Assembly: GCA_019779905.1 (NCBI GenBank)
Contig: JABAKE010000017.1
Location: 1 to 64,000 of the forward strand
Reading direction: 5' to 3'
DNA length: 64,000 nucleotides
Origin: Modestobacter lapidis
GTDB taxonomy: Bacteria > Actinomycetota > Actinomycetes > Mycobacteriales > Geodermatophilaceae
Shown here: positions 14,870-61,143 of the stretch, in pieces
How the letters are laid out: each line of letters begins with the position of its first letter
Position numbering within the stretch: the first letter of the stretch is position 1
Notes under the pieces: generated by a model
The model's input: only the letters and a program-made list of their open reading frames with translations
Told to the model about the DNA's origin: nothing
The model's database searches: none
Program-made: the position numbers and the translations under genes

Positions 14870-16135
<1,266 letters not shown>

Positions 16136-16141
16136 CCGCCC

Positions 16142-18169: not shown

Positions 18170-18183
18170 GCCGGAACGCGCGA

Positions 18184-18212
18184 GAGGCCCCCGTCCGCTG
18201 GACGGGGGCCTC
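18184..18212. terminator. Bidirectional hairpin between glfT2 and glfT1
   Basis: GAGGCCCCCGTCC and GGACGGGGGCCTC form a perfect 13-bp stem with a three-base loop between two convergent genes, so it can serve both strands. Confidence 0.8.
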
Positions 18213-18219
18213 CACGCTT

Positions 18220-20713: not shown

Positions 20714-20726
20714 GTGCCCCACGCTA
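20714..20726 (-). promoter_or_regulatory. -10 box TAGCGT before wzm
   Basis: TAGCGT on the minus strand ends seven bases before ATG 20713, so the exporter operon is probably leaderless. Confidence 0.55.
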
Positions 20727-20775
20727 CCTGGGCGGGTCGGCCGGCCGGCACGCCTGACATCGACTGCGGGGGGCA

Positions 20776-24042: not shown

Positions 24043-24578
24043 TCCGCCACCCGCACGTCGAACGGTTCGGAGGTCCCGCTCGTCGTCCCCGACTCGTAGC
24101 CCAGGACGGCACTCCACTCGCCCGGCGCCAGGTCGTCGCCGAGGACCTGCAGCTGGCCACAGGACGTGGTGGAGGCGTCGGCGACGGCGTCCGACGTCGT
24201 CGACACCGACTCTCCGTCCCGGGTGAGCTCGAGGGTGCAGGTTCCGCCGTCCTCGATCACCGGGCTGACGTAGCCACTGGCGATCACCGCGTCCGCGGCC
24301 CCGTCCCAGACCAGGTAGGTCAGCACCACGTCGGTGGTGGCCGGCCGCGGGGCGTCGGTCGCGACCGGGGCGTCGTCGTCGGTGACCACGCCCACCGGCG
24401 GGGTCACCGGCGCCGTCGTCGACGTCGACGTCGTCGCCCCGGTGACCGTCCCGGCGGCCTGCCCGGCCGCCGCTCGTTCCACGTCGGCTGCACCGCCGGT
24501 GCAGCCGGTCAGCCCGACCACGGCGGCGGAGGCGAGCACGAGCCGCCCTCGGCGGCTCCGGAACGGGGAAGACGTCAT
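24039..24578 (-). CDS. Lipoprotein of unknown function
   Basis: A 179-residue protein with a basic N-terminus, a hydrophobic h-region and the lipobox VGLTGC (Cys 26), so it is probably lipid-anchored outside the membrane. A Thr/Ser/Pro/Val linker (residues ~40-85) is followed by a beta-sandwich-like domain with two cysteines (GTCTLEL and TSCGQL) that could form a disulfide. It sits between two LGFP-repeat genes on the same strand and overlaps the second by four bases, suggesting that all three products act together at the wall. No family recognised. Confidence 0.85.
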   Translation of the reverse strand: MTSSPFRSRRGRLVLASAAVVGLTGCTGGAADVERAAAGQAAGTVTGATTSTSTTAPVTPPVGVVTDDDAPVATDAPRPATTDVVLTYLVWDGAADAVIASGYVSPVIEDGGTCTLELTRDGESVSTTSDAVADASTTSCGQLQVLGDDLAPGEWSAVLGYESGTTSGTSEPFDVRVAE

Positions 24579-27600: not shown

Positions 27601-27954
27601 GACCTCCGTCCACGTGCCCCAGTCGCCGTCCTCGGTGCGCACGCGGACCTGCACGACCGTGTCGGTGACGGCCGGGTCGTGGGTCCAGGTGACGCCGACG
27701 AGCGAGAACGGCGCCACGTCGCTGCCGGCGACCGTGAGGGTGGGCTCGGTCGACGAGACCCCGGGAACCGGGGCGGTGGTGCCCGGCTGCACATCGGCGG
27801 CGGGCGCCGGCGCGTCGACCGAGCCCATCGAGACCTCGGCACTGGAACCGGCGACCGGCTCCGGTTCGGGGACCGGTGCGGCGTAGACGGGCAGGACGAG
27901 CAGGGTGCCGGTCAGGGCCAGCAAGGCGATGAGGCCCGTGAGTGTACGACGCAC
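24643..27954 (-). CDS. Secreted N-acetylmuramoyl-L-alanine amidase with LGFP repeats
   Basis: A 1103-residue exported protein. A signal peptide (~1-25) and a Pro/Ala-rich region are followed by a beta domain to ~190. Next comes a PGRP/amidase_2 domain at ~200-400 with zinc ligands in TLHHTAD, GHRDVG and TACPG, and the FGVSMLGNYD strand. It should cut the stem peptide from muramic acid. Twelve LGFP-type units follow. GGAGGA lies seven bases before GTG 27954. The LGFP array shares nearly identical DNA blocks with the array at 20776-24042. LGFP-amidase proteins are known from corynebacteria, where they are thought to tether to arabinogalactan. Confidence 0.93.
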   Translation of the reverse strand: MRRTLTGLIALLALTGTLLVLPVYAAPVPEPEPVAGSSAEVSMGSVDAPAPAADVQPGTTAPVPGVSSTEPTLTVAGSDVAPFSLVGVTWTHDPAVTDTVVQVRVRTEDGDWGTWTEVTPETADQSTTAATGAELRGGTSPLWTGPSTGVEAELVTRSGAQPTDVQLELIDPGASAADAALDAPEITDTANAAAAMPAVFSRAQWGADERIRSWGPEYAPTIKAATLHHTADSNNYSYDQVPAMMRSIYQYHTVKLGWGDIGYNVIVDKFGRLFEGRAGGLASTVIAAHAGGFNNSTFGVSMLGNYDVVPVPQGTVDSVAAIIAWKFSLFGIDPRGSTVLTSRGGGTSRYAAGTTVTLPTIFGHRDVGSTACPGRYGYARLAEIRDKVTAQLGSAAPLVQKRYDSDAAVRTLLGTPATPVTPLPGGAFAHYANGSLYASTNTGAHVVRGVLRDKWASLGWENSWLGYPITDVAATPDGSGQFQHFQQGSLYWSPATGAHAVAGAVRDKWSTTGWEVGYLGYPTTDQTPIRGGGAQYAHFQGGSIYWSAATGAHVLGGAVYDRWAASGWENSRLGLPVTDLAVAPDRVGLFAHFEHGSIYWTPTTGARLLDKAVYGAWAATGWETGPLGYPVTDLTRTPNGQAEYVHFQRGSVYASAATGARALSGPLLAAWAASGWENGLLGLPVTGTGKTPDGKATYQHFQRGSIYSTAATGTRTLTTAVRDGWAASGWEAGPLGYPTSDAGPTPDGRGTVATFQGGEVYASPATGAHAVSARLRTAFVAAGGVAGSLGLPVGDAGRTPDGKATYQHFEGGSIYSTTATGTHVVPAAAFGVWAASGFERGPLGYPTSGPTTTTTTTPGTGASGPAAGTVQTFQGGALYSAGGAVRMVTAPFQAAVTAAGGTARFGFPITDPGRTPDGKATYQHFAGGSVYSTAGGAFALPAAIRDSWALAGWEGGSLGYPVTTVRPTPGSAGEYVHFAGGSVYWSRATGAHVVRGPVRDAWAAAGWEQGVLGFPTTDHTVTPDRKGAYTYFQGGAVYWSQGTGAHVLRGAVLDAWARTGWEQGRLGYPTSDTRTVSGGTRTDFERGFISVSTSTGEATVTVR

Positions 27955-28340: not shown

Positions 28341-29870
28341 GTGAGCAGAGACGACGAGCGCGCAGCGCCTGGACCGGCGCGCCCTCTCCCGCCACGGCTG
28401 GACCCTCGCCTGGGCCGCTCCCCCGGCCGGCCGGACCGCACCGCCGCGGCACCCCGGTCCGGTCGCGGTGGCTCCCGCGCCGCCGTCGCCGCCCGGGTCG
28501 TGGCCGGCCTGGTGTCCCTGGTCCTGCTGGGCACCAGCGGCTGGGGCTGGTACCTCGGCCGGGTGGCCGAGGCGACCGTCAACCGCACCGACGCCATCCC
28601 CACCGCGGGCAACGAGGACGCCGGCTCGGTCGGCGAGGCGATGAACCTCCTGCTGGTCGGCAACGACAGCCGGGCGGCGCTGACCGAGGAGCAGCTGGCC
28701 CAGCTCAACGCCGGCAAGGACTCCGGCATCAACACCGACACGATGATCCTGGTGCACGTCCCGGCGGACGGGTCGAAGGCGTCCTTCGTCTCCTTCCCCC
28801 GCGACTCCTACGTGCAGATCCCCGGCTACGGCTGGGACAAGCTCAACGCCGCCTACGCGTACGGCTACCAGAACTCCGAGGCAGCCACCGAGGAGGAGCA
28901 GCTGGCCGCCGGGGCCCAGTTGCTGGTGCAGACGATCAGCTCGCTCACCGGCCTGCAGATCGACCACTACGCCGAGGTCGACCTGCTCGGCTTCTTCGAG
29001 CTCAGCAGCGTCGTCGGCGGGGTGGAGGTCAACCTCTGCAACGCGGTGGATGACTCCTACTACTCGGGCGCGGTCTTCCCGGCCGGCGTCCAGACCATCA
29101 GCGGCGCCGACGCGCTGGAGTTCGTCCGGCAGCGCCACGAGCTGCCCCGCGGCGACTTCGACCGGATCGTCCGCCAGCAGGTGTTCATCGCCGGCGTGCT
29201 GCGCAAGATGCTGTCCGAGGAGGTCCTGCTGGATCTGGGCAAGCAGCGGGAGCTGGTGCAGGCCGCGGCGAACTCCCTCACCGTCGACCAGTCGCTGAAC
29301 CTGCTGCAGCTGGCCCAGCAGATGCAGTCGGTCACCGCCGGCAGCATCGACTTCCAGACCGTGCCGAACCTCGGGACCGACAAGGAGGACGGCATGTCGA
29401 TCGTCCGGCTGGAGGACGTGCCGACGCTGCACGCCTTCTTCGCCGACCTGTCGGCCGAGCCGGTCGACGCCGCCGCGCCGACCGCCGAGGCACCCGTCGC
29501 CGCCACCCCGGCCGAGGTGGACGTCGAGGTCTACAACGGCTCGGGCACCTCCGGGCTGGCCGGCGATGCCGGCACCGCGCTGACCCAGGCGGGCTTCACC
29601 GTCACCGGGACCGCCAACGCCGACTCGATGGACTACACGGTCACCGAGATCCGGCACGCGCCCGGCGACGAGTCGCTGGCCACGGCGCTGGCCGCCGTCG
29701 TGCCCGGCGCCGTCGTCAAGGAGATGACCGACGCCACCACCGGCACCGTCCAGCTCGTCCTGGGGTCGGACTTCAACGGCGTCGGCCAGGCCGTCACGCC
29801 GGCACCGCCGGCCGAGCCCACCGAGGGCATGGACCCGCGCACCGCCGCGGACACCACCTGCATCAACTGA
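28341..29870 (+). CDS. LytR-CpsA-Psr (LCP) family wall-polymer ligase
   Basis: A 509-residue protein. A Pro/Arg-rich cytoplasmic N-terminus is followed by one membrane helix (~50-72) and the LCP domain (~95-330). LCP motifs: LLVGNDSRA, NTDTMILVHVP, the Arg/Asp-rich SFPRDSYVQIPGYG, and FVRQRHELPRGDFDRIVRQQ. The LytR_C domain (VEVYNGSGTSGLAG) follows. LCP proteins move wall polymers from polyprenyl-PP carriers to peptidoglycan, and the mycobacterial counterpart here (CpsA, Rv3267) is an arabinogalactan ligase candidate. It is therefore the probable last step for the galactan genes around it. Confidence 0.93.
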   Translation: MSRDDERAAPGPARPLPPRLDPRLGRSPGRPDRTAAAPRSGRGGSRAAVAARVVAGLVSLVLLGTSGWGWYLGRVAEATVNRTDAIPTAGNEDAGSVGEAMNLLLVGNDSRAALTEEQLAQLNAGKDSGINTDTMILVHVPADGSKASFVSFPRDSYVQIPGYGWDKLNAAYAYGYQNSEAATEEEQLAAGAQLLVQTISSLTGLQIDHYAEVDLLGFFELSSVVGGVEVNLCNAVDDSYYSGAVFPAGVQTISGADALEFVRQRHELPRGDFDRIVRQQVFIAGVLRKMLSEEVLLDLGKQRELVQAAANSLTVDQSLNLLQLAQQMQSVTAGSIDFQTVPNLGTDKEDGMSIVRLEDVPTLHAFFADLSAEPVDAAAPTAEAPVAATPAEVDVEVYNGSGTSGLAGDAGTALTQAGFTVTGTANADSMDYTVTEIRHAPGDESLATALAAVVPGAVVKEMTDATTGTVQLVLGSDFNGVGQAVTPAPPAEPTEGMDPRTAADTTCIN

Positions 29871-29934: not shown

Positions 29935-30690
29935 TCAGATGGGCAGCCGGCGGAAGACCGGTCGCGGCACGTGCCGCAGCACGCTCATCACCACCCGCAT
30001 CGCGCCGGGGACCCAGACCGTGTGCCGCCCCCGGCGGATGCCGCTCACGATCGCCTCGGCCACCGCCTCGGGGGTGGTCGCCAGCGGTGCATCGGGCATC
30101 CCGGCGGTCATCTTCGACCGGACGAAGCCCGGCCGCACCACCAGCACCGATACACCGCTGCCGGCCAGGGAGTCGGACAGCCCCGAGTAGAAGGCGTCCA
30201 GGCCGGCCTTGGTCGAGCCGTAGACGAAGTTCGACGCCCGCGGGCGTTCCCCGGCCACCGAGGACAGCGCGACGATCACGCCGTGCCCCTGCCGACGCAT
30301 GTGCTCGGCCAGCACGGTGCCGACCACGGTCGGCACCACGTAGTTGACCCGGGCCAGCTGCGCCACCGCAGCGGCGTCGCTGCGCAGCTGCTCGGCGTTC
30401 CCCAACTGCCCGAACGCGACGAGCGCGACGTCGACGTCCCCGCCGGCCGCGACCCGGGCCAGCATCCGCTCCGGCGAGCCCGGGTCGTCGGCGTCGAAGT
30501 CGACCACCTCGACCGACCCACCCGCGGCGCTCAGCTGGTCGGCCACCGCCGCGCGGCGGGGGGTGTCCCGGGCCGCGACGACGACCCGCAGCGGACGCTC
30601 CCGCAGGTACCGGTGGGCCGTGGCGACGGCGATGTCGGAGGTGCCGCCGACGAGCAGCAGCGAGCCGACCGAACCGAGGGCGTCGATCAC
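29935..30690 (-). CDS. dprE2: Decaprenylphospho-2-keto-ribose reductase
   Basis: A 251-residue SDR. The N-terminal site is LLVGGTSDIA, with catalytic Ser in ALSSVAGERP and YGSTK (YxxxK). Together with DprE1 it converts decaprenyl-phospho-ribose to decaprenyl-phospho-arabinose, the only arabinose donor for the wall. The GTG start overlaps the dprE1 stop (GTGA), so the two subunits are made together. The 528-1277 gene is a clear paralogue sharing the same C-terminal pattern (TVWVPGAMRVVMSVLR here). Confidence 0.94.
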   Translation of the reverse strand: MIDALGSVGSLLLVGGTSDIAVATAHRYLRERPLRVVVAARDTPRRAAVADQLSAAGGSVEVVDFDADDPGSPERMLARVAAGGDVDVALVAFGQLGNAEQLRSDAAAVAQLARVNYVVPTVVGTVLAEHMRRQGHGVIVALSSVAGERPRASNFVYGSTKAGLDAFYSGLSDSLAGSGVSVLVVRPGFVRSKMTAGMPDAPLATTPEAVAEAIVSGIRRGRHTVWVPGAMRVVMSVLRHVPRPVFRRLPI

Positions 30691-32072
30691 AGCGAGAGCC
30701 TCCTGGCCAGGTCCGAGGTGAACACGCCATCGGGGTCGACCCGCTGCCGGACGGCACGGAAGCGGCCGAGGTCGGGGTACATCCGCTCGAACACCTCCGG
30801 GCGCAGCCGGGAATCCTTGGCGAGGTAGATCTTCCCGCCGGCCTCGACGACCAGCTGGTCCAGCTCGTCGAGCAGCGTGGCCAGCCGGCTGCCGCCCACC
30901 GGGATGTCCAGCGCGAGCGTCCATCCCGGGGCGGGGAAGGACAGCGGGCCGGGGTTGGCCGGGCCGAAGCGCTTGAGCACGGCGAGGAACGACGCCGTCC
31001 CGGCGGAGCTGATCCGCAGCATCGCCTCGCGCAACGCCTCCTCGGCACCGAACGGGACGACGAACTGGTACTGCACGAACCCGCGCGGGCCGTAGATGCG
31101 ATTCCACTCCCCCACCCCGTCCAGCGGGTGGAAGAAGGTCGGGATGCCCTGCAGCTGGTCGCGCTTGCGGGTGGGCGACTTCCGGTACCAGACCTCGTTG
31201 AACGCCGCGACGGTGCCGAGGTTGAGCAGGCCGGGCGGAAAGAGATCGGGCGCGCTCAACTTGACCGAGGTGGCGTAGCGCAGCGGGTCGCGCTGCTTCT
31301 TCTCCGGCAGTTCGTCGCGGCGGGCGAACCGGCCGCGGGTGAGCACCGACCGGCCCATCCGCCGGCCGCGGGCGACGCAGTCGATCCACGCGACGGAGTA
31401 GTCGTACAGGTGGTCGGTTTCGGTCAGCAGGGCCATCAGCGACGCGAGGTCGGGCGTCCGGTCGGTGTCGACGAGCACCTGCGACGACTCGATCCGCTTC
31501 ATCCGCACCCGGGCGGCCAGCACGACGCCGGTGAGCCCCATGCCGCCGGCGGTGGCCCAGAACAGCTCGGGGTCCGCGTCGGGCGAGACCCGGCGCACCT
31601 GGCCGTCGGCGGTCAGCAGATCCAGCCAGTCGACGTGCTGGCAGAAGCTCCCGGCCTGGTGGTGGTTCTTGCCGTGGATGTCCGCCGCGATCGCGCCACC
31701 CACCGTCACGTACCTGGTCCCGGGAGTGACCGGGACGAACAGACCCATCGGCACCAGCAGGGACATCAGCCGGTCCAGCGGCACCCCGGCGTCCACCTCG
31801 ACCGCGCCGGCGGCCAGGTCGACCTGACGCACCTGGTCCAGCCCGGCCATGTCCAGCACCGTGCCGCCCGCGTTCTGCGCGGCATCGCCGTAACTGCGGG
31901 CCAGGCCGCGCGCGGCGACGCCACGACCACCGGCCCGGCGGACGGCCGCGCGCACGTCCTCGGCCGTGCGGACGCCGACGAGCTCGGCCGGGGTGGGCGC
32001 GGTGCGCCCCCACCCGGCGAGGAACCGGCGATCGACGGGCGGCGCGGGCAGTGCCTCAACCACCGAACACAC
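30687..32072 (-). CDS. dprE1: Decaprenylphospho-ribose 2-oxidase, Ala at the benzothiazinone cysteine
   Basis: A 461-residue FAD oxidase, the same length as M. tuberculosis DprE1. FAD-binding ARGLARSYGDAAQN and HGKNHHQAGSF, and the C-terminal AKDSRLRPE lysine region, are all present. The segment matching the M. tuberculosis drug-target cysteine (GWNICVDFP, Cys 387) reads GWTLALDIP here, so the position is alanine. GTG 32072 overlaps the ubiA 3' end; GTG 32063 is an alternative start. It forms an operon with ubiA, the PAP2 gene and dprE2, covering all steps from the phosphoribosyl lipid to the arabinose donor. Confidence 0.95.
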   Translation of the reverse strand: MCSVVEALPAPPVDRRFLAGWGRTAPTPAELVGVRTAEDVRAAVRRAGGRGVAARGLARSYGDAAQNAGGTVLDMAGLDQVRQVDLAAGAVEVDAGVPLDRLMSLLVPMGLFVPVTPGTRYVTVGGAIAADIHGKNHHQAGSFCQHVDWLDLLTADGQVRRVSPDADPELFWATAGGMGLTGVVLAARVRMKRIESSQVLVDTDRTPDLASLMALLTETDHLYDYSVAWIDCVARGRRMGRSVLTRGRFARRDELPEKKQRDPLRYATSVKLSAPDLFPPGLLNLGTVAAFNEVWYRKSPTRKRDQLQGIPTFFHPLDGVGEWNRIYGPRGFVQYQFVVPFGAEEALREAMLRISSAGTASFLAVLKRFGPANPGPLSFPAPGWTLALDIPVGGSRLATLLDELDQLVVEAGGKIYLAKDSRLRPEVFERMYPDLGRFRAVRQRVDPDGVFTSDLARRLSL

Positions 32073-50857: not shown

Positions 50858-51385
50858 GTGACGAGGTGGGCGGGCGCCGGCCGGCGCGTCGGCAGCACCG
50901 GGCGCCTCCTGCTGAAGGAGCTCAGCGCCTTCGGTGTGGTCGGCCTGGCGTGCTTCGTCCTCGACATCGGCCTCTTCCAGCTGCTCTACGCCCAGGTCGG
51001 GCTGGATGCGGTCACCGCGAAGCTCCTGTCCACCATCGTCGCCACCACCGCCGCCTTCATCGGGCACCGGTACTGGTCGTTCGCGCACCGGGCCCGCACC
51101 GGCGTCCGGCGCGAGTACGCGCTGTTCCTGGTGGTCAACGGGCTCACCCTGCTGCTCGGGCTGGCCGTCGTGGCCGTGGTCCACCACCCGCTGGGCCAGG
51201 ACAGCGCGCTGGTGCTGCAGCTGGCCAACGTCGGGTCCATCGGGCTGGGCACGGCGATCCGCTACTTCTCCTACCGGCGGTGGGTGTTCCCGGCGCCGGC
51301 GCACGTCGACGCCGCCCTCTCCGCGCCGGCGGGCCGGCCACCGGCCGCTGCCGGCGAGTCACAGCTGAACCATCTGCTCCGCTGA
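50858..51385 (+). CDS. GtrA-family membrane protein (Rv3277 position)
   Basis: A 175-residue protein with four membrane helices: FGVVGLACFVLDIGLFQLLY, TAAFIGHRYWSFAHR and YFSYRRWVF are typical GtrA signatures. It sits divergently from the purK side as Rv3277 does in M. tuberculosis. It may assist flipping or use of polyprenyl-linked sugars. Ending in a ~30-residue hydrophilic tail, it precedes the pseudaminic acid genes but has its own promoter. Confidence 0.9.
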   Translation: MTRWAGAGRRVGSTGRLLLKELSAFGVVGLACFVLDIGLFQLLYAQVGLDAVTAKLLSTIVATTAAFIGHRYWSFAHRARTGVRREYALFLVVNGLTLLLGLAVVAVVHHPLGQDSALVLQLANVGSIGLGTAIRYFSYRRWVFPAPAHVDAALSAPAGRPPAAAGESQLNHLLR

Positions 51386-51439
51386 CCACTCGCCGACCAC
51401 CCGTCGTGTCGCGAAGCGTGCCGGAATGATCGGTCTCGG

Positions 51440-51452
51440 TAGCGTCCGCCCG
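51440..51452 (+). promoter_or_regulatory. -10 box TAGCGT before the GT29-like gene
   Basis: TAGCGT ends seven bases before GTG 51453, which favours this start over ATG 51426. Confidence 0.5.
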
Positions 51453-52115
51453 GTGTCACAGGTAGCTGCCACCCGCCGGACCCACATCGGGGAACTCGCC
51501 CGCACCTACGCCCGGGCGTGGAACGTCCGCAGCGTCGCCGTGGTCGGCAACAAGCCGCTGGAGCCCTCGGGCCCGCGGGCCGGGGCGATCGACGCGTGCG
51601 ACCTCGTCGTGCGGGTCAACGGCTTCCGCCTGGACGACCCCGGGGACCAGCCCACGTACGGTCGCCGGGCGGACGTCGCCTTCTTCAACCGGGCGCTGCG
51701 CGCCACCCCGTGGTTCTTCACCGGGTACCGCGACCGGCTCCACCTCCTGGTGGAACCGGGCCGGCTGCACTGGGAACCGGACGTGGTGCCGTCCTGGTGG
51801 CCCGAGGACCTCGGCCACGTGCACGTCGACAACGACGACCTGACCCTGCCGCTGTCGGCCGAGCTGGGGCTGGACTCCACCCGCGAGGGACTGTGGGCGA
51901 CCACCGGCACCATGGCCGCGTGGTGGGCGCGCACCACGTTCCCCGACGCCCGGCTGGAGCTGGCCGGGTACTCCTTCGTGACCGAACCCGATCAGACCCG
52001 CTGGCAGCACGCCTCCGGCGACGACTGCATCGTGGGCCCCGAACACCGCATCGCGCTGGAGTCGGACCTGCTGCGCGGATGGGTGGCCGACGGCCGGGCG
52101 AGGATCTGGGAGTGA
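51453..52115 (+). CDS. GT29 (sialyltransferase-fold) glycosyltransferase
   Basis: A 220-residue protein with the motif order of family GT29. The sialylmotif-L-like SVAVVGNKPL (~27-36) is followed by AIDACDLVVRVNGF and YGRRADVAFFN. A motif-S-like TTGTMAAWWARTTFPDARLE ends in LAGYSF, and a late His-Glu pair lies in GPEHRIALESDLL. GT29 enzymes transfer nonulosonic acids from CMP donors. It begins the rightward half of a pseudaminic acid locus and has no signal peptide. A CMP-pseudaminic acid transferase is the leading idea, but this is inference. ATG 51426 is an alternative start. Confidence 0.72.
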   Translation: MSQVAATRRTHIGELARTYARAWNVRSVAVVGNKPLEPSGPRAGAIDACDLVVRVNGFRLDDPGDQPTYGRRADVAFFNRALRATPWFFTGYRDRLHLLVEPGRLHWEPDVVPSWWPEDLGHVHVDNDDLTLPLSAELGLDSTREGLWATTGTMAAWWARTTFPDARLELAGYSFVTEPDQTRWQHASGDDCIVGPEHRIALESDLLRGWVADGRARIWE

Positions 52116-52173
52116 CCGAGGGGCCCGTCCACCGGCTCACCGCCGGCCGCGGCACCACGACAGGAGGAACAGC

Positions 52174-52659
52174 ATGAAGTTGCCCGGGAAGCTGCGCGCC
52201 CGCGTGGAGGAGGCGTTCAGCCGACGGCTGGCCGAGCCCCTGCACGCCGTGCAGGGAGACATCGGCGGCATCCACGACCACCTGCACCGCCTGGAGCGCC
52301 GGCTGGACGACCTCGCCGGCCGGGACCGGGAGCTCGACGAGCGCATCGCCGAGCAGGCGCGGCGCGTGGAGCAGCTCGAACGCCGGATGGAGCCCGTCGA
52401 GCGGGAGTCCTCCTGGTCGGCGAACGAGCTGGCCCGGCTCGCCCCCCAGGCCGCTGCCTTCGAGGCGCGCCTGGAGCAGCAGCGCGAGCGCGCCGAGGTC
52501 ATCACCGCAGAGCTCACCGACCTGCCCGAGGCCCGCACCCTCGTCGAGGTGGTCCGCGAGGAGCACGCCCGGGTGCGCGCCCGGCTCTCCCTGGTCTCCT
52601 CCTACGAGGAGCGGCTCCGCCGGCTGGAGCTCCGGTCGCTGGGCCGGGAGGGCTCATGA
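52174..52659 (+). CDS. Coiled-coil protein in the pseudaminic acid locus
   Basis: A 161-residue protein, mostly predicted coiled coil. Heptad-like Leu/Arg/Glu runs cover residues ~20-75 (LERRLDDLAG, VEQLERRMEP) and ~85-155. It has no membrane segment or catalytic motif. AGGAGGA lies six bases before ATG 52174, an excellent ribosome site, and its stop overlaps the PseI start (ATGA), so it is co-translated with pseudaminic acid synthase. It might scaffold the enzymes or the GT29-like transferase. No known family. Confidence 0.8.
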   Translation: MKLPGKLRARVEEAFSRRLAEPLHAVQGDIGGIHDHLHRLERRLDDLAGRDRELDERIAEQARRVEQLERRMEPVERESSWSANELARLAPQAAAFEARLEQQRERAEVITAELTDLPEARTLVEVVREEHARVRARLSLVSSYEERLRRLELRSLGREGS

Positions 52660-53723
52660 ACCCGGTACCGGAACTGCTCGCGGCAGCGGCGACCGGCACG
52701 CCGTGGATCATCGCCGAGCTGTCGGCCAACCACGACGGCAGCCTGCAGCGCGCGCTGGCCACGATCGATGCGATCGCCGCGACCGGTGCGCAGACGGTCA
52801 AGTTCCAGACCTACACCGCCGAGTCGATGACGCTGGACTCCGACCGGCCGGCCTTCCGGGTCACCGACGACCACGGCCTCTGGGGCGGACGGCGGCTGTT
52901 CGACCTCTACCGGGAGGCCGGCACGCCCTACGAGTGGCACGAGGCGCTCTTCGCCCGGGCCCGGGAACACGGGCTGGTGCCGTTCTCCAGCCCGTTCGAC
53001 GCCTCGGCGGTCGAGCTGCTCGAGGGCCTCGGCTGCGCCGTCTACAAGATCGCCTCCGCGGAGCTGCTGGACCTGCCGCTCATCCGGCTGGCGGCCGGCA
53101 CCGGCAAGCCCCTGGTGATCTCCACCGGGATGGCGAGCCTGGGTGACATCGATGCGGCCCTGTCCGCCGCCCGCTCCGCGGGCTCGGGACAGCTCGTGCT
53201 GCTCAGCTGCACCGCCGCCTACCCCGCCGCACCGGCCCAGAGCCACCTGGCCAACATCGCGGTGCTCCGCGAGGCGTTCGGCGTGCCCGTCGGGCTGTCC
53301 GACCACACCCCCGGGGTCGGGGTCCCGGTCGCCGCCGTGGCGCTCGGCGCCGTCGCGGTGGAGAAGCACGTCATGCTCGACCGCGACGGTGGCGGGGTCG
53401 ACTCGGCCTTCTCGCTCGACCAGGTGGAGCTGGCCGACCTGGTCCGCGAGTGCACCGCGGCCGGCGCCGCGGTCGCCGCGCCACCGGCCTTCGGGATCCG
53501 CCCGGGCGAGGAGGAGACCGCCCGGTTCCGCCGCTCGCTGTGGGTCGCCCGGGACGTCGCCGCCGGCGAGACGGTGCAGCCGGGCACCGTGCGGTCGCTG
53601 CGACCTGCCGGCGGCCTGCCCCCGGGCTCGTGGGAGGACGTGGTGGGCCGCCCGTTCGCCCGGTCCGTCCCCGGCGGCACCCCGCTGACCTGGGACCTGC
53701 TCGACGCGCCGGTCAGCCGCTGA
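52656..53723 (+). CDS. pseI: Pseudaminic acid synthase
   Basis: A 355-residue NeuB-type aldolase condensing phosphoenolpyruvate with 2,4-diacetamido-trideoxy-altrose. Motifs: IIAELSANHDGSL, VKFQTYTAESM, TPYEWHEALF and FSSPFDASAVELLEGLG. The DGGGVDSAFSLD stretch is typical of PseI rather than NeuB. An SAF/antifreeze-like C-terminal domain starts near residue 290 (RRSLWVARDVAAGE). Its 3' end overlaps the convergent pseC gene by 11 bases. Confidence 0.92.
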   Translation: MNPVPELLAAAATGTPWIIAELSANHDGSLQRALATIDAIAATGAQTVKFQTYTAESMTLDSDRPAFRVTDDHGLWGGRRLFDLYREAGTPYEWHEALFARAREHGLVPFSSPFDASAVELLEGLGCAVYKIASAELLDLPLIRLAAGTGKPLVISTGMASLGDIDAALSAARSAGSGQLVLLSCTAAYPAAPAQSHLANIAVLREAFGVPVGLSDHTPGVGVPVAAVALGAVAVEKHVMLDRDGGGVDSAFSLDQVELADLVRECTAAGAAVAAPPAFGIRPGEEETARFRRSLWVARDVAAGETVQPGTVRSLRPAGGLPPGSWEDVVGRPFARSVPGGTPLTWDLLDAPVSR

Positions 53724-54840
53724 AGAAGCCGCGGACCAGGTCGCACACCCGGTCGACGTCGGCGTCGCCGAGCCCGACGAACAGCGGCAGCGACAGCTCC
53801 TGCCGGTACCAGCGCTCGGCCACCGGGAACTCCCCCCGGCGGTACCCGAGGTCGGCGAACACCGGGTGCCAGTGGGCGGGCACGTAGTTCACCTGGACGC
53901 CGACCCCCGCCGCGCGCAGGTGCTCGAACAGCGCCCGGCGGGCTTCCTCGGGAACGCGGGCCGGGTACAGGTGCCACGCGACGTCGGCGTCGTGCGGCCG
54001 GCTGGGCAGCGTCACCTCCGCCACGTCGGCGAGCGCGGCGTCGTACCGCGCACTCAACTCCGCACGCCGGGCGATGAACGCCGGCAGCCGGCGGAGCTGG
54101 CTGGACCCGAGGGCGCACAGGACGTCGGGCAACCGGTAGTTCAACCCGAAGGAGTGCACCTCCTGGTGCCAGGGCCCCTCGTCCGGCCAGCGCTGCCGGG
54201 CCGGGTCGCGGACCAGGCCGTGGTTGCGGAAGCCGGCGGCCCGCGCCAGCAGGTCGGGCGAGGTGCTGACGACCGCACCGCCCTCGGCGGTGGTCAGGTT
54301 CTTCGTGGCGAAGAAGCTCAGGGTGGTCAGGTCGGCGAGGGCACCCACCGGCCGGCCGCGCCACGTGGTGCCGATCGAGTGGGCGGCGTCCTCGAGGAGC
54401 AGCGCCCCGGCACCGTCGGCGACCTGCCGCAGCGCGTCCATGTCCGCCGGCGCGCCCGCGTAGTCGACCGCGGTGACCACCGTCGTCCGCGGGGTGACCG
54501 CGGCGGCGGCGGCCGCCGGGTCGAGGCAGCCGGTCGCCTCCTCGACGTCCGCGAAGACCACCCGCGCACCCAGGAGCGCCGCGGTCGCCGCGGTCGCGAC
54601 GAAGGTGAACGGCGTGGTGACCACGTCCTGTCCCGGCCCCACACCGGCCGCCGCGTAGGCGGTGTGCAGGGCCGCCGTCCCGGAGGTCACCGCGACGGCC
54701 GGGTTCCCGCCGGTCCACCCGGCGAGGTCGGCCTCGAACCGGGTCACGGCGGGGCCGGTGGTCAGGTAGGGATCGGTGACCGCCCGGGCGACCGCCGCGA
54801 CGTCCGACTCGTCGACCGACTGCCGGGCGTACGGGAGCAC
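53713..54840 (-). CDS. pseC: UDP-4-keto-sugar aminotransferase PseC
   Basis: A 375-residue DegT/DnrJ-type PLP aminotransferase. It starts MLPYARQSVDESD and has TSGTAALH. The PLP lysine is in FFATKNLTTAEGG near residue 180, with YRLPDVLCALG and a late VNYVPAHWHPVF. These are hallmarks of PseC, which aminates C4 of the PseB product. GTG 54840 lies five bases after the pseB stop, forming a pseB-pseC operon. The stop region overlaps pseI. Confidence 0.92.
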   Translation of the reverse strand: MLPYARQSVDESDVAAVARAVTDPYLTTGPAVTRFEADLAGWTGGNPAVAVTSGTAALHTAYAAAGVGPGQDVVTTPFTFVATAATAALLGARVVFADVEEATGCLDPAAAAAAVTPRTTVVTAVDYAGAPADMDALRQVADGAGALLLEDAAHSIGTTWRGRPVGALADLTTLSFFATKNLTTAEGGAVVSTSPDLLARAAGFRNHGLVRDPARQRWPDEGPWHQEVHSFGLNYRLPDVLCALGSSQLRRLPAFIARRAELSARYDAALADVAEVTLPSRPHDADVAWHLYPARVPEEARRALFEHLRAAGVGVQVNYVPAHWHPVFADLGYRRGEFPVAERWYRQELSLPLFVGLGDADVDRVCDLVRGFFSG

Positions 54841-54845
54841 GTCGC

Positions 54846-55841
54846 TCAGTCCAGCGCGGCGACGAGCTCGCGGAGCTCCTCGACGCCGATCAGGAGGTCG
54901 TTGGTGTCCGAGCGGTACGCCGACCCGTCCGGCACCGGCTCACCGGCCGGCGGCTCGTAACCCCAGCCGGCCAGGTAGGGGGTGATCACGTACCGGTTGC
55001 CGGTGCGCAGCGTCCGGCGCGAGTCGTCGGCCGCGATCATCTCCTCGTGCAGCTTCTCCCCCGGCCGGATGCCCACGTCCACGGTGTCCGCACCGGGCGC
55101 GATCGCCTCGGCGAGGTCGATCAGCTTGCTGCTGGGGATGCGCGGCACGTACAGCTCCCCGCCCACCATCACGTCGAGGGACTCGACCACGAAGTCGACG
55201 GCCTGCGGGAGGGAGATCCAGAACCGGGTCATCCGCCGGTCGGTGATCGGCAGCGGCTTCCCCTCGGCGGCCAGCCGGCGGAAGAACGGGATGACGCTCC
55301 CCCGGCTGCCCAGCACGTTGCCGTACCGGACCACGCTGAACCGGGTCCGCTGGTGGGCCGCGTAGTGGTTGGCCGACACGAACAGCCGGTCGGCGCAGAG
55401 CTTGGTCGCGCCGTACAGGTTGATCGGGCTCGACGCCTTGTCCGTGGAGAGCGCGACCACCTTCTCCACCCCGGTGTCGATGGCCGCCTCGACCACGTTC
55501 TCCGACCCGTTGACGTTGGTGCGGATGTACTCCACGGGGTTGTACTCGGCCGTGTCCACCTGCTTGAGGGCGGCGGCGTGGACGACGACGTCGACGCCGT
55601 GCATCGCCCGGCGCAGGCGCTCCCGGTCCCGGATGTCGCCGATGAACCAGCGCAGCCGGGCGTCGTCGCCGAACCGGGACCGCATGTCCGACTGCTTCAG
55701 CTCGTCCCGGCTGAACACCACCACCCGTCGCGCACCCAGGTCCAGGGCGCGCTGCACGAAGGCGTTGCCGAAGGAGCCCGTGGCTCCGGTGACGAGGACG
55801 GAGGCCCCCTGGAGGGACGACTGACCAGCCGGCTCGTTCAC
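54846..55841 (-). CDS. pseB: UDP-GlcNAc 4,6-dehydratase (inverting) PseB
   Basis: A 331-residue extended SDR. NADP site TGATGSFG is near residue 19, FSRDELKQ follows, and the catalytic region LSTDKASSPINLYGATK is the PseB type, where a Asp-Lys pair replaces the usual Tyr context. RYGNVLGSRGSVIPFF and the C-terminal RPGEKLHEEM are also typical. It carries out the first step of pseudaminic acid synthesis, with C5 inversion. GTG 55841 has GAGGGG seven bases upstream. It is divergent from the cytidylyltransferase gene. Confidence 0.94.
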   Translation of the reverse strand: MNEPAGQSSLQGASVLVTGATGSFGNAFVQRALDLGARRVVVFSRDELKQSDMRSRFGDDARLRWFIGDIRDRERLRRAMHGVDVVVHAAALKQVDTAEYNPVEYIRTNVNGSENVVEAAIDTGVEKVVALSTDKASSPINLYGATKLCADRLFVSANHYAAHQRTRFSVVRYGNVLGSRGSVIPFFRRLAAEGKPLPITDRRMTRFWISLPQAVDFVVESLDVMVGGELYVPRIPSSKLIDLAEAIAPGADTVDVGIRPGEKLHEEMIAADDSRRTLRTGNRYVITPYLAGWGYEPPAGEPVPDGSAYRSDTNDLLIGVEELRELVAALD

Positions 55842-55915
55842 GTGCCACCCCTCGCCATCGGTTGCTCGTCGCCAGCGGATCGTGTCACAGCGCGACCGGC
55901 GCCGTTCTCCTCGGG

Positions 55916-55927
55916 CAGGATGGCGGC
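55916..55927 (+). promoter_or_regulatory. -10 box CAGGAT before pseF
   Basis: CAGGAT ends six bases before GTG 55928, the same box and spacing as at cofD. Confidence 0.4.
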
Positions 55928-56659
55928 GTGCGGGTTGCAGCGGTCGTCCAGGCCCGGATGGGCTCCACCCGGCTGCCCGGGAAGGTCCTGCGTCCGCTGG
56001 GCGGCCGCCCGGTCCTGTCGTGGGTCCTCCGGGCCGTCGAGGCCAGCGGGTGCGCCGACGAGGTCGTGGTCGCGACGACGGTGCTGCCGGAGGACGACCC
56101 GGTGGAGCAGTGGGCGCGCGAGTCCGGCGTCGCCGTCGTGCGCGGCTCCGCCGACGACGTCCTGGCGCGCTACCTGGACGCGCTGGCCGCGCACCCGGCC
56201 GACGCGGTGGTGCGGCTGACCGCCGACTGCCCGCTCCTGGACCCGGCCCTGCTCCGTGGCGTCGTCGCCCTGTGGCGGTCCGCCCCGGACGCCTACGACT
56301 ACGTGGCGACCACCCTGGAGCGGACCCTGCCCCGCGGGCTCGACGTCGAACTGGTCAGCGCCCCTGCCCTCCGGCGGGCGGGAGCCGGGGCCGGGGGTCA
56401 CCACCGGGCGCACGTGACGTCCTACGTCTGGAGCCGGCCGGACCTCTTCCGGCTGGGCGGGCTGGTGGTCCGGCCGGCCGCGGCCGATCTGCGGGTCACC
56501 CTGGACACCGCCGAGGACGCGGCCCTGCTCGACGCTCTCGTCGCCCGCCTCGGGGACGCCCCGCCCGACTGGCGGGAGCTCGTCGGCGTGCTCCGGTCCA
56601 GCCCGGACCTGGTCGCGCTCAACGCGGCCGTCCAGCAGAAGGAACTCGAGGAGGGCTGA
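55928..56659 (+). CDS. pseF: SpsF/PseF cytidylyltransferase
   Basis: A 243-residue CMP-nonulosonate-type transferase. VVQARMGSTRLPGKVL (residues 6-21), VRGSADDVLARY, RLTADCPLLDP and RVTLDTAEDAAL match the SpsF branch of cytidylyltransferases, used as PseF in many pseudaminic acid loci. It would activate pseudaminic acid as CMP-Pse. GTG 55928 places the signature at the N-terminus. The PseG-PseH fusion starts three bases after its stop. Confidence 0.9.
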   Translation: MRVAAVVQARMGSTRLPGKVLRPLGGRPVLSWVLRAVEASGCADEVVVATTVLPEDDPVEQWARESGVAVVRGSADDVLARYLDALAAHPADAVVRLTADCPLLDPALLRGVVALWRSAPDAYDYVATTLERTLPRGLDVELVSAPALRRAGAGAGGHHRAHVTSYVWSRPDLFRLGGLVVRPAAADLRVTLDTAEDAALLDALVARLGDAPPDWRELVGVLRSSPDLVALNAAVQQKELEEG

Positions 56660-56661
56660 GC

Positions 56662-58152
56662 GTGGCACCGCTGGCCTTGCTGCGCTGCGACGCGGTCCCC
56701 GCCACGGGGGTCGGCCACCTCGTCCGGTGCCTCGCCGTCGCCGAGGCGGCGGCCGCCGCCGGGTGGCGGGTGCTGCTCGTCGGCGAGGTGAGCGCTCCGC
56801 TGGCCGTGCAGCTGGTCGCGGCGGCCGGGCTGTCCGTGCACCCGGCCGGCACCGGACCGCTGGACGAGCTGGCGGCGGGCCTGGGCGCGCGGGTCGTCCA
56901 CCTCGACCACTACGCGGTCGCCGGTCCACCGCCCGGCGACCCGGCCGCCGGCGACCTGCTGGTCAGCTCCGTCCAGGACGGCCGGCACGGGCGGCGGGAC
57001 GCCCACGTCGTGGTGGACGCCTCCTCCCTCGCCGAGGTCACCGCCGCCGTCGTCCCCGCGGCCCGGGTGCGCCTCACCGGGCCGCGACAGGCGCTGCTCC
57101 GCGAGCAGGTGCGGCACGCCGCCGCGCGGCGACGGGCGGACCGCGCTGCCTCCTCCCGGGTGCTGGTGGTGGCCGGTGGGACGGATGCGGCCGGGATCGT
57201 CCCCCGCCTGGCGGCCATCGCGGTCGAGGCGGTCGCGGACCCGTCGGTCGAGATCCTGGTGCTCGATCCCGCGGCCACCGGAACGTCCCGCACTCCCGGC
57301 GGCGTGGTGCGCCGTCCGCCGGGGGCGGACCTGGTCGAGCTGGCCGCCGGCTCCCGCCTGGTGATCACGGCGAGCGGCACGACGACGAGCGAGCTGGCGG
57401 TGCTCGGGGTCCCGATGGCCGTGGTGCGCGCGGTGGACAACCAGGAGGAAACCTACTCCCGGCTGGTGTCGGCCGGTGCCGCCCTGGGGCTCGGCTCTGC
57501 CGCGGACCTCGACCGGGACCGGGACCGGCTGGTGCAGTCGCTGCGCGGGCTGGTCCACGACCGTGTCCGGCTGGCCGCCCTCTCCGAGGCAGCCGGCGCG
57601 CAGGTCGACGGCGCCGGCGCCGACCGGCTGGTGGCGGCGTGGACGTCGGTGCTCGACGGGCGCAGCGCACCCGGGGCACGAGGCTGGTGGGTGGGCCCGG
57701 CCCGGGCGTCGGACGGCGACCTGCTGTTCCGCTGGCGGAACGACCCGGAGACCAGGGCACGCTCGCTGACCACCGAGGCCGTTCCACGGGCCGGGCACGA
57801 GGCGTGGCTGACCGGTGTGCTCGCCGATCCGGATCGATCGCTGCTGATGGTCGGCCGCGGCGACGCCCGCGTGGGCACGGTGCGCTTCGACCGACGCGCC
57901 ACGGAGACCTGGGAGGTGTCGATCACGATCGCGCCGGAGCAGCGTGGCCGGGGACGGGCACGGACCGTCCTGGCGTGCGGGGAGGAGTTCCTGGCCTGCC
58001 GGGTGGCGGGCCGGCCGACGGTGGTCGCCCAGGTACGACCGGACAACCACGCCTCCCGGGCCCTCTTCGCCGCCGCCGGCTACCGCGCCACCGGGCTCGG
58101 CGACCCGGCGACCGGCTCGGTGGACCGCTGGGAGAAGCCCCTGCCGGTGTGA
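56662..58152 (+). CDS. PseG-PseH fusion: UDP-sugar hydrolase plus N-acetyltransferase
   Basis: A 496-residue two-domain protein. Residues 1-~330 are a PseG UDP-sugar hydrolase (GT-B fold): LRCDAVPATGVGHLVRCLA with the catalytic-type His 19, and TASGTTTSELAVLGVPMAVV and VDNQEETY in the nucleotide site. Residues ~341-496 are a GNAT acetyltransferase of PseH type: LFRWRNDPETRARS, VSITIAPEQRGRGRARTVLA and NHASRALFAAAGY. The fusion links N4-acetylation and UMP release, two consecutive steps of pseudaminic acid synthesis. GTG 56662 follows GAGG and lies three bases after pseF. Confidence 0.92.
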   Translation: MAPLALLRCDAVPATGVGHLVRCLAVAEAAAAAGWRVLLVGEVSAPLAVQLVAAAGLSVHPAGTGPLDELAAGLGARVVHLDHYAVAGPPPGDPAAGDLLVSSVQDGRHGRRDAHVVVDASSLAEVTAAVVPAARVRLTGPRQALLREQVRHAAARRRADRAASSRVLVVAGGTDAAGIVPRLAAIAVEAVADPSVEILVLDPAATGTSRTPGGVVRRPPGADLVELAAGSRLVITASGTTTSELAVLGVPMAVVRAVDNQEETYSRLVSAGAALGLGSAADLDRDRDRLVQSLRGLVHDRVRLAALSEAAGAQVDGAGADRLVAAWTSVLDGRSAPGARGWWVGPARASDGDLLFRWRNDPETRARSLTTEAVPRAGHEAWLTGVLADPDRSLLMVGRGDARVGTVRFDRRATETWEVSITIAPEQRGRGRARTVLACGEEFLACRVAGRPTVVAQVRPDNHASRALFAAAGYRATGLGDPATGSVDRWEKPLPV

Positions 58153-58182: not shown

Positions 58183-61143
58183 TCAGGCCGCGAGGCGCGA
58201 GCCGTGCCGCCCGGCGATGACCTCGACCCGGCTGCCGATGCGCGTGCGCAGCTCCTCGACGTGGCTGATCAGGCCGACCGTGCGGCCACCCCGCCGCAGC
58301 TCGTCGAGCACCGTCATCACCGCGTCGAGGGCCAGCGGGTCGAGGGTGCCGAAGCCCTCGTCGACGAAGAGGGTGTCCAGCTGCACCCCGCCGCTCTCCG
58401 CGGTGACCACGTCGGCCAGACCCAGGGCGAGGGCGAGAGAGGCCATGAAGCTCTCCCCGCCGGAGAGGGTCTTGGTCGGCCGACGGACGCCGGTGTACTC
58501 GTCGAGGACGTCGAGCCCGAGCCCGCCGCGGGCACCGTGCCGGCCCTGTGCGTCACTGTGCACGAAGGTGTACCGGCCGCCGGACATGTGCTGCAGCCGC
58601 CGGCTGGCCACCGAGGCGACCTCCTCCAGGCGGGCAGCGAGCACGAAGGACTGCAGCCGCATCTTCAGCTGGTTCGAGCCGCGGCCGTTGACCAGGTCCG
58701 CGAGGGCGGTGACCTGGTCCGACCAGGCCCGCCGCTCGTCGAGCTCGACGTCGACGGCGGTGACCTCGCCGGCCAGCGCGTCCAGCGCCGCGGCACATCC
58801 GGCGGCGTGCTCGGCCGCCGTCACGGCCGCCTCGCGCGCCGTGGTGGCGTGCCGGCAGGCCACCTGCGCGGCGTCGAGGTCGGGCCGCGGGCCCAGGTCG
58901 GCGAGGTCGGGCTCGGCGAGGGTGGCGCTCACCGCGACCAGCTGGTGGTCGTGCTCCTCGACCTGCCGGGCGAGGGCACCGAGGCGGCTGCGGTCGAGCA
59001 GTGCGTCGGCCGCGGCCGGCACGTCGGCGAAGCCGCCCTCGGCGGCCCGCTCCTCGGCCGTCCGACGGGCGCTGTCGGCCGCGGTGCGGACCCGCAGCTC
59101 GGCATCGGCCGCCGCCACCAGCGCCTCGCACCGCTCGGCCTCGGCGACCAGGCGGTCGATGCGTCCTGGGAGGTCGGCATCGTCGGCGCAGGCGGCGACG
59201 AGCCGGCCGCGCACCTCGGTGCAGGCGGCGACGGTTGCGGCCGCCTCGGCCCGGGTGCGCTCCAGCAGCGCCCGGTCGTCGGCGACCGTCCGCTGGGTGG
59301 CATCGCGCCGGGCGGCCAGCTCGGCCAGCTCCGCGCGGGCCTGCGCCAGACCGGTGGCGAGCCCGGCCGCGGCCGACTCCGCCGCCCGGGCGTCGACCAG
59401 CTGCTCGCGGAGCGCCGGCAGCGGCACTGCACCGGCGCGGGCCTGGTGCGCGGTCAGCTCGCCCTGCGCGGCCTCCCGGACGACGCGGGCCGCGGTGACC
59501 CGCTGCTCGGCGCGCTCGACGTCCTGACGGGCGCGCTCCTCGTCCTCGGCGGTCACGGCGGACCCGTGCGCGGTGGCCGGCCCCGGGTGCTCGGTGGCTC
59601 CGCAGACCGGGCAGTCGGCGCCGTCGCGGAGCTGGGCGGCGAGCTCGGCGGCCATGCCGTCCAGCCGGGCGGTACGCAGGGCGGCCAGCCGGTCGCGGGC
59701 GTCCAGCCAGGCCTCCCGGGCGTCCTGCTCGGCCTGCCGCCCGGCGGCGACCTGGTCGGTGAGCGCCGCGGCGGCCTCGGCGGCGGCCACGGCGGCGGCC
59801 AGGGCCCGCGCGCCGGCGGTCAGCCCGGGCAGCCGGGCGGCAGCCTCCTGGGCGGCCGCGACCGCGGCCTCCTGGGTACTGATCCGACCGGGCCAGCCGG
59901 CCAGTTCCTCGCTGCCCTGCCGCACCCGCTGCTCGAGGTCGGTGACGGTGCGGGCCAGCCGGGCGCCGGCGCGATCCAGCTCCTCGGCGCGGTCGACCTC
60001 GGGGAGCAGCGCCCGCGCTGCGGCGGCCTCGTCGCGGAGCCCGCGGGACACCAGCGTGTCGGCGTCCCGCCCGGCGGCGACGGCGGCCCAGGCCCGCTCG
60101 GTCCGCTGCAGGGCGTCGGCGGCCTCCTCGGCGGCGAGCGCGGTGCGCCCGGCGGCCTCCAGTGCATCGCGCAGCGGCTCGGCCCGCCGGCCGGCGTCCA
60201 GCAGCGCGCGGAGGCCGACGAGCCCGGACTCGGCGGCGGTCAGCCGCTCGAACTCGCGGCGGGCCCGCTCGCGGCGGACGTGCCGTTCCTCGAGGGTGCG
60301 GGCGGCAGCCAGCGCGCGGTCCTCCTCCGCGACCAGCTCCGCCGCCTTCTCGGCCTCGGCCCGGGCCGACGCGCGGCGCGCCTCGGCCGCGGCGCGGACA
60401 GCGGCCACCCAGGGCGCGACCCGGGCCCCGGCGGCGGCGCCGACCAGCTCCGGCGCCAGGTGCTCCGGCACCTCCACGTCGGCGACCTGGGCGACGCGGG
60501 CGATCAGCGTGCTCATCCGGACCCGCACGTCCTCGAGCTCCTGGCGCGCGGACTGGCGTTCCGTGGCGAGCCAGTCCTCGGCGCGGGCGAACCGGCCGAC
60601 GTCGAACAGGGTGCGGAGCAGGCGCCCCCGTTCTTCCGGCTCGGCACGCAGGAAGCGGGCGAAGTCGCCCTGCGGCAGCAGCACGACCTGGCAGAACTGC
60701 TCGGCCGACAGACCGAGCCGGGTGCGCAGGTGCTCGGAGCCCTCGTCGATCCGCGTGCTGACCGGCTCCCAGCCGTCAGCGGTCAGCCGCTGGACGGTGA
60801 GCCTGGCCTGCTCGGTGGTCCAGCCGGCACCCCGCAGCTTGGGCCGCTGCTGCTCGGGGCGGCGGACGACCAGCAGCCGCTCCCCGCCCAGCGTCAGCTC
60901 GCACCGCACCTCGGTGCGCACGCTGGGACCGGCGTGGTCGCTGCGCAGCCGGCGCTCCTCGCCGCGAGCGCCGGGGACGGTGCCGTAGAGGGCGAACACG
61001 ACCGCATCGAGCAGCGTGGTCTTACCCGCCCCGGTGGGCCCCCACAGCAGGAAGAGCCCGTCCCGCCCGACCTCGTCGAAGTCGACGGTGACGGTGTCGA
61101 CGAACGGGCCGAACGCGGTGACCTCGAGCCGGTGCACCCTCAT
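58183..61143 (-). CDS. sbcC: Exonuclease subunit SbcC
   Basis: A 986-residue SMC-like ATPase of the SbcCD nuclease. Walker A is LLWGPTGAGKTTLLDAV (~30-46), QVVLLPQGDFARF follows, long Ala/Arg/Glu-rich coiled coils run from ~180 to ~880, and the zinc hook CPVC lies at residues 511-514. The C-terminal ATP-binding signature is TLSGGESFMASLALALGLAD and Walker B TLFVDEGFGTLD. It processes hairpins and blocked DNA ends. ATG 61143 overlaps the sbcD stop. Confidence 0.96.
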   Translation of the reverse strand: MRVHRLEVTAFGPFVDTVTVDFDEVGRDGLFLLWGPTGAGKTTLLDAVVFALYGTVPGARGEERRLRSDHAGPSVRTEVRCELTLGGERLLVVRRPEQQRPKLRGAGWTTEQARLTVQRLTADGWEPVSTRIDEGSEHLRTRLGLSAEQFCQVVLLPQGDFARFLRAEPEERGRLLRTLFDVGRFARAEDWLATERQSARQELEDVRVRMSTLIARVAQVADVEVPEHLAPELVGAAAGARVAPWVAAVRAAAEARRASARAEAEKAAELVAEEDRALAAARTLEERHVRRERARREFERLTAAESGLVGLRALLDAGRRAEPLRDALEAAGRTALAAEEAADALQRTERAWAAVAAGRDADTLVSRGLRDEAAAARALLPEVDRAEELDRAGARLARTVTDLEQRVRQGSEELAGWPGRISTQEAAVAAAQEAAARLPGLTAGARALAAAVAAAEAAAALTDQVAAGRQAEQDAREAWLDARDRLAALRTARLDGMAAELAAQLRDGADCPVCGATEHPGPATAHGSAVTAEDEERARQDVERAEQRVTAARVVREAAQGELTAHQARAGAVPLPALREQLVDARAAESAAAGLATGLAQARAELAELAARRDATQRTVADDRALLERTRAEAAATVAACTEVRGRLVAACADDADLPGRIDRLVAEAERCEALVAAADAELRVRTAADSARRTAEERAAEGGFADVPAAADALLDRSRLGALARQVEEHDHQLVAVSATLAEPDLADLGPRPDLDAAQVACRHATTAREAAVTAAEHAAGCAAALDALAGEVTAVDVELDERRAWSDQVTALADLVNGRGSNQLKMRLQSFVLAARLEEVASVASRRLQHMSGGRYTFVHSDAQGRHGARGGLGLDVLDEYTGVRRPTKTLSGGESFMASLALALGLADVVTAESGGVQLDTLFVDEGFGTLDPLALDAVMTVLDELRRGGRTVGLISHVEELRTRIGSRVEVIAGRHGSRLAA

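Follow-up and report, generated by a model that had tools for sequence, protein, structure and literature searches.

What becomes of the rare sugar that a pseudaminic acid (Pse) locus supplies in a soil actinobacterium, and onto which acceptor is it placed? The question is raised by a 64,000-nucleotide stretch of Modestobacter lapidis DNA (contig JABAKE010000017.1, positions 1 to 64,000; hereafter the window), in which a Pse gene island lies at 51426–58152. A sequence-only reading had proposed that PseB, PseC, PseI, an SpsF-type PseF and a PseG–PseH fusion are encoded here, and these genes are indeed present as open frames at 52656–58152, PseB and PseI passing their family cut-offs and the others being best fits below them. 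The start given to the region in that reading, position 51453, falls inside a further gene at 51426–52115, which likely encodes a transferase and sits directly upstream of a coiled-coil gene and the Pse genes; both additional genes are counted here as part of the island. The putative transferase resembles the sialyltransferases of glycosyltransferase family 29 (GT29), and it may place Pse on a galactan-type glycan of the cell wall. A full pathway to CMP-activated Pse (CMP-Pse) and a wall target, both advanced in the sequence-only reading, are favoured here too, and the transferase, its coiled-coil partner and the swapping of sugar cassettes had escaped it.

The GT29-like transferase and its coiled-coil partner

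The gene at 51426–52115 (+) encodes a 229-residue protein, which sialylmotif-like regions and family profiles point to as a GT29-like nonulosonic acid (sialyl)transferase. The regions, assigned by eye and named as in PMC10225777, are motif L (VAVVGN..IDACDLVVRVN), motif S (TTGTMAAWWA), motif III (AGYSF) and motif VS (H207-x4-E212). All four are conserved in two alignments, one of 15 family members and one of 67 rows, the latter comprising the window transferase and 66 of 67 loci obtained by scanning named genomes with the 15-row alignment (L119, with a stop within its stretch, is left out). Twenty-eight columns are invariant across the 67 rows, including N42, D56, R63, N65, T159, G161, G181, H207 and E212. 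No membrane anchor is seen by eye in the protein, which is about 230 residues long.

The Pfam family PF00777 matches six of the 15 rows of the first alignment and, at E <= 0.1, 50 of the 67 rows of the second, with a best value of 7.4e-8; the window protein is not among these 50. Searched against the PDB at E <= 10, the 67-row profile retrieves eight distinct sequences, all of them GT29 sialyltransferases, the best at 5.5e-4. Furthermore, positions 14–200 of its 207 align with L158, a PF00777-positive protein from a different actinomycete, and three further PF00777 proteins align over short stretches only. Since motifs and profiles alike point to GT29, the gene is described as GT29-like, and we predict with good confidence that its product is a nonulosonic acid transferase. 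GT29 was reported in bacteria in 2018, from proteobacteria and with no function assigned, the survey stating that its trees could not predict bacterial function (PMC5811610). Among the matches listed from the open-licence literature, which is thin on actinomycete wall polymers, no title concerns this locus or actinobacterial GT29.

The adjacent gene (52174–52659, +) encodes a coiled-coil protein of 161 residues and overlaps pseI by four bases. A homologue lies downstream of GT29 in all 67 named loci, never fused to it, the weakest match being 3.7e-6. In an alignment of 66 loci plus the window protein (L095, which has no start, is dropped), R88, P91, R137, E145, R147 and E152 are invariant in all 67 rows, so that the partner is not just a generic coil.

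Linkage to nonulosonic acid genes

When the locus is compared across Geodermatophilaceae, a check that the sequence-only reading had suggested, GT29 is found in 15 of 112 genomes and a NeuB-superfamily synthase in the same 15, counts that ignore kinship. The PseI cut-off is exceeded in five of them; a sixth genome, G090, has its gene divided between two contig ends. The window genome contains a single NeuB-family gene.

Fifty of the 67 named loci carry PseI, PseC and PseB, three carry NeuB and NeuC, one has a Kdn-type (ketodeoxynononic acid) pair, and 13 are classed as other. Among the latter, two are truncated by contig ends but still show PseI (L065, L080), four from Geodermatophilus have NeuA at the edge (L125, L128–L130), three carry PseB, PseC and PseG but no PseI (L120, L121, L127), one has PseB, SpsF-like and NeuB-like genes (L108), and three are without any such gene in the fetched DNA (L084, L085, L117). 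A strong NeuB match is present in all nine of these loci that were searched beyond the locus; the remaining four, from Geodermatophilus, have NeuB and NeuC on longer stretches of the same contigs (L046, L047, L048, L050). In two Sciscionella genomes (L084, L085), GT29 and the coiled coil stand beside the exporter, and NeuB is located elsewhere in the genome. Nocardioides insulae (L131) possesses two GT29/coiled-coil pairs (1180 and 10001), separated by about 9 kb in which PseB, PseC, PseG and SpsF-like genes are found.

In a class sample of 394 genomes, NeuB occurs in 216, with many weak matches, and the 67-row profile in seven, three of which match at motif L only. That NeuB generally depends on GT29 throughout the class is therefore rejected: the transferase predicts nonulosonic acid genes, not the reverse. 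PF00777 itself is found in seven of the 394 genomes, in five of which (G249, G428, G234, G319, G359) the same contig bears a strong NeuB match at a distance of about 5–19 kb, and in two of which (G291, G230) the match is on another contig. Three distant PF00777 proteins from large actinomycete genomes (L159, L160, L161), of whose neighbourhoods one was read (L163), have a NeuB-type gene about 6–14 kb away, and they are possibly transferases for other nonulosonic acids.

A wall glycan as the proposed acceptor

In the window, Glf (UDP-galactopyranose mutase) and GlfT2 for galactan synthesis are encoded at 14912–18109 (+; PF03275, PF17994, PF19320), and the ATPase Wzt and permease Wzm of a galactan export ABC transporter at 19125–20779 (−). 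The exporter passes both cut-offs (NF050108, 452.0 bits against 400; NF050109, 416.6 bits against 380), a test that covers the window pair and not the relatives' copies. Wzt of the window shares 78% identity, and Wzm 70%, with its counterpart in the pair that Geodermatophilus carries near GT29. Moreover, an LCP-family protein is encoded at 28341–29870.

Across the named loci, galactan genes, taken as an exporter ATPase homologue (>= 60% identical), Glf, or GlfT2 (>= 40%) in the fetched DNA, are present in 49 of 67, a count that stands without a background rate; they occur in 41 of the 50 Pse loci, seven of the 13 others, the single Kdn locus and none of the three Neu loci. Together with the adjacent GT29-like transferase, this count supports the earlier preference for a wall target over a flagellar one. 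The acceptor in this strain is judged from relatives, because the loci with a window-type island (L065–L070, L072) show galactan genes in none of seven in the fetched DNA, three of them being cut by contig ends. A galactan-type wall glycan is only narrowly favoured, with slightly more than an even chance.

Instead of decorating galactan, Pse could be built into the main chain of a separate wall polymer resembling teichulosonic acid. A teichulosonic acid of galactose and Kdn is known from Streptomyces coelicolor (PMC7831098) and a teichulosonic acid from Kribbella (PMC6113628); Kdn-type genes also stand at one GT29 locus, and a second locus begins a similar synthetase gene at a contig end. However, the island contains no further glycosyltransferase, and the GT29 of relatives is associated with Glf, GlfT2 and the galactan exporter, which makes a separate polymer of this kind unlikely.

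Less likely still is a role of the island in glycosylating the flagella of a motile Modestobacter, an explanation that we regard as distinctly improbable. Flagellin is a well-known destination of Pse (PMC5109656, PMC13317340), the family at large is reported to have flagellar genes (PMC9686282), and the window genome has two flagellin_N matches; both score weakly compared with the matches in relatives, and one of the two spans domain positions 67–134 only. The sequence-only reading had argued from the lack of a flagellar gene nearby. That argument is weak alone, with flagellin_N in 100 of the 112 family genomes, the window genome included. NeuB-type genes, however, are found in only 15 of the 112, which indicates that the family's flagellin as a rule does without them. 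PF01973 (Maf-type) is found in none of the 112 genomes, in a search whose controls (14 genomes) are positive in four archaea only and whose sensitivity to bacterial Maf is unshown. In most relatives, the transferase is situated near galactan genes, and many of these relatives belong to Amycolatopsis and Saccharomonospora. Neither genus is known to be motile.

Other genes are situated around the galactan cluster. Two large LGFP-repeat proteins are encoded beside it at 20776–24117 and 24643–27954 (−), the second with an Amidase_2 domain, and LGFP-repeat relatives adjoin GT29 in Geodermatophilus loci. A FAD-binding oxidase with an ALO domain, which we take to resemble DprE1-type enzymes of arabinan synthesis, is encoded at 30687–32072 (−).

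The predicted pathway to CMP-Pse

PseI (52656–53723, +), a pseudaminic acid synthase with NeuB and SAF domains, passes the TIGR03586 cut-off (400.8 bits against 340.25), and its best PDB match is the pseudaminic acid synthase 8h2c (9.5e-69). PseB (54846–55841, −), an inverting UDP-N-acetylglucosamine (UDP-GlcNAc) 4,6-dehydratase, passes that of TIGR03589 (461.7 bits against 407.75), with the UDP-GlcNAc C6 dehydratase 2gn4 as its best PDB match (6.5e-105). In the case of the aminotransferase PseC (53713–54840, −), TIGR03588 is the best family at 396.9 bits, missing its cut-off of 423.5, and the best PDB match belongs to the ArnB group, the aminotransferase 2fn6 ranking lower. The SpsF-type PseF (about 55928–56659, +), a probable CMP-nonulosonate cytidylyltransferase, matches PF02348 at 2e-25 and the cytidylyltransferase 6oew, its best PDB match, at 2.3e-37; TIGR03584 reaches no more than 34.6 bits against a cut-off of 205.7, less than the 56.7 bits of KdsB-type models.

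The PseG–PseH fusion (56662–58152, +) contains a hydrolase region (about 56677–57666) followed by an acetyltransferase region (about 57682–58149). TIGR03590 is its best NCBIfam match (66.8 bits) and TIGR03585 the second (25.6 bits), both under cut-off, and phmmer finds no PDB match at E <= 0.01. For PseF, PseG and PseH, the superfamilies are right and the scores far under the equivalog cut-offs. The most likely start of the fusion is the GTG at 56662, behind GGAGG-like bases; a 756-residue open reading frame from 55882, which reads through upstream of this codon, was rejected as the fusion protein. Relatives of PseG and PseH are present in all six Pse-type genomes of the family, with weak matches in three, and the two are fused in three genomes and separate in three. 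In addition, the open frames of the window island show the codon composition of real genes.

A gene of suitable type is present for every one of the six steps, and the product is, very probably, CMP-Pse or a close variant. That it is another nonulosonic acid or an acyl variant is the most improbable of the alternatives: PseC, PseF, PseG and PseH do lie under curated cut-offs and Bacillus subtilis does use SpsF-type enzymes in a route to legionaminic acid (PMC7439481), but the inverting PseB and PseI pass equivalog cut-offs with best PDB matches of the corresponding activities, and LegB- and LegC-type models score far lower than Pse models on PseB and PseC.

Exchangeable cassettes and the insertion site

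Across relatives, GT29 appears to be the constant part of the system, and the sugar pathway a replaceable cassette of Pse, Neu5Ac (N-acetylneuraminic acid) or Kdn type. In Geodermatophilus, the neighbours of GT29 are NeuC (331.6 bits, cut-off 235.9), a CMP-synthetase and a synthase for which NeuB is the best model at 337.6 bits, under the cut-off of 399.65. In Blastococcus atacamensis, NeuB is accompanied by a synthetase that carries a fused domain resembling Kdn-9-phosphatase (116.4 bits, missing the cut-off of 180). Since this domain and the Geodermatophilus NeuB fall under their cut-offs, Neu5Ac and Kdn are predictions only as products.

On a tree of 69 transferases (the 67 aligned rows and two more; 56 labelled Pse and four unlabelled), the Pse label needs three changes, all forced by well-supported branches; five of the Pse-labelled rows (L065, L080, L120, L121, L127) are without a complete set of PseI, PseC and PseB in the fetched locus. 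M. muralis, with Pse genes, and Modestobacter sp. VKM Ac-2986, with Neu genes, form a supported pair with transferases 86% identical. In both, purK, gtrA, GT29 and the coiled coil follow in the same order, and different cassettes then precede sbcC, the two sides of the M. muralis locus coming from two contigs. Within the clade of this pair, by the criterion applied, site I209L alone separates three Neu-type from six Pse-type transferases, and with this single separating site a clear donor-specific signature in GT29 was rejected. The Modestobacter–Blastococcus transferases are separated on the tree from those of Geodermatophilus, to which they are 43–50% identical, so Geodermatophilaceae probably acquired the transferase system at least twice.

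The island sits between gtrA (50858–51385, +; PF04138) on its left and an SbcC-like gene (58183–61143, −), for which SbcC models are the best NCBIfam matches, under cut-offs, on its right; both flanks lie outside it. GT29 is present in four of 23 Modestobacter genomes, three with Pse genes and one with Neu genes. Fourteen of the 19 genomes without it were examined at the site, the other five being at most 80% complete. In all 14, gtrA and sbcC are present with no island gene between them; the two matches are 39–139 bases apart in 12 genomes and separated by other DNA of 2.4 or 6.7 kb in two. The island had been thought to interrupt a gtrA–PH order; instead, it parts gtrA from sbcC, since sbcC and sbcD follow gtrA in 14 of 14 island-less relatives and PH comes later in 13, the stretch of L147 ending sooner. 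Being present in all 14, gtrA was rejected as part of the system. Because L147, a Modestobacter without the island, has 6.7 kb of different DNA at this position, the gtrA–sbcC site may be a hot spot.

Proposed mechanism and significance

From the genes, their conservation, their linkage and the different cassettes at one site, we infer the enzyme activities, sugar products and acceptor, and the place and order of events, as follows. PseB would dehydrate and invert UDP-GlcNAc, and PseC would aminate its product; the PseH domain would then acetylate, and the PseG domain would remove UDP. PseI would condense the resulting sugar with phosphoenolpyruvate, and the SpsF-type enzyme would activate Pse with CTP to CMP-Pse, these six reactions being as described in PMC5109656. 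In the cytoplasm, the GT29-like protein with its coiled-coil partner would transfer Pse from CMP to a lipid-carried wall glycan of the galactan type, and the galactan ABC exporter, followed by an LCP ligase, would bring the decorated polymer onto peptidoglycan. This scheme, with CMP-Pse as predicted product and the glycan as predicted acceptor to which GT29 attaches Pse ahead of export, has in our estimate a somewhat better than even chance.

Several findings weigh against it. The window transferase has no Pfam or NCBIfam family match of its own, phmmer matches it to no PDB chain, and the 15-row profile retrieves four GT29 sequences among eight from the PDB, the top one unrelated and none significant. 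PseC, PseF, PseG and PseH all stay under curated cut-offs. On the galactan side, the window-type loci show no galactan genes in the fetched DNA, and about 31 kb lie between the window cluster at 14912–20779 and GT29. In the class, NeuB-type genes commonly occur with no GT29-like transferase, and one class genome (G352) has a strong GT29 match and a weak NeuB match only, though its locus breaks at a contig end. The order there is Glf, GlfT2-like, ABC genes, GT29, coiled coil and, as the last element, some 300 bases of a synthetase gene that shares 58% identity with the Kdn-type one of Blastococcus atacamensis. Because the contig ends just inside this gene, a gap in the assembly may explain why NeuB is missing.

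A broader and more tentative proposal, to which we give rather less than an even chance, is that the actinobacterial GT29-like protein is a "wall sialyltransferase" that, with a coiled-coil partner dedicated to it, caps exported galactan with nine-carbon acidic sugars and tolerates donors from different stereochemical series, namely Pse, Neu5Ac and Kdn, strains altering their surface sugar by swapping the donor cassette and keeping the transferase. If true, this would be the first functional setting proposed for bacterial GT29-like enzymes outside proteobacteria, as far as the literature searched shows. Bacterial GT29-like proteins would gain a concrete setting and a substrate prediction, and Pse and sialic acids would be tied to wall galactan in actinobacteria. 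Meanwhile, the two Modestobacter strains with 86% identity between their transferases and with different sugar pathways provide a natural experiment on donor choice, and a transferase accepting several nonulosonic acids would, if real, be a useful tool enzyme.

Comparison with known systems

The predicted pathway comprises the same six steps as the CMP-Pse pathway of Helicobacter and Campylobacter, with the window PseB and PseI above equivalog cut-offs, but differs in its SpsF-type PseF, its fused PseG–PseH, its GT29-like neighbour and its actinobacterial host. As in the S. coelicolor Kdn and Kribbella teichulosonic acids (PMC7831098, PMC6113628), a nonulosonic acid would be found in an actinobacterial wall polymer; however, another sugar is predicted here, and the available parts of those sources show no link from the polymers to a GT29-like transferase. 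Compared with the animal and proteobacterial enzymes of GT29 (CAZy; Pfam PF00777), the window family shares four sialylmotif-like regions and the VS histidine, whereas the window protein is short, actinobacterial and without an anchor seen by eye. In the flagellin glycosylation islands of Geobacillus, Neu-type and Pse-type pathways likewise alternate between strains (PMC5109656); those islands are flagellar, whereas here a GT29-like transferase is the constant part and often stands near galactan export genes.

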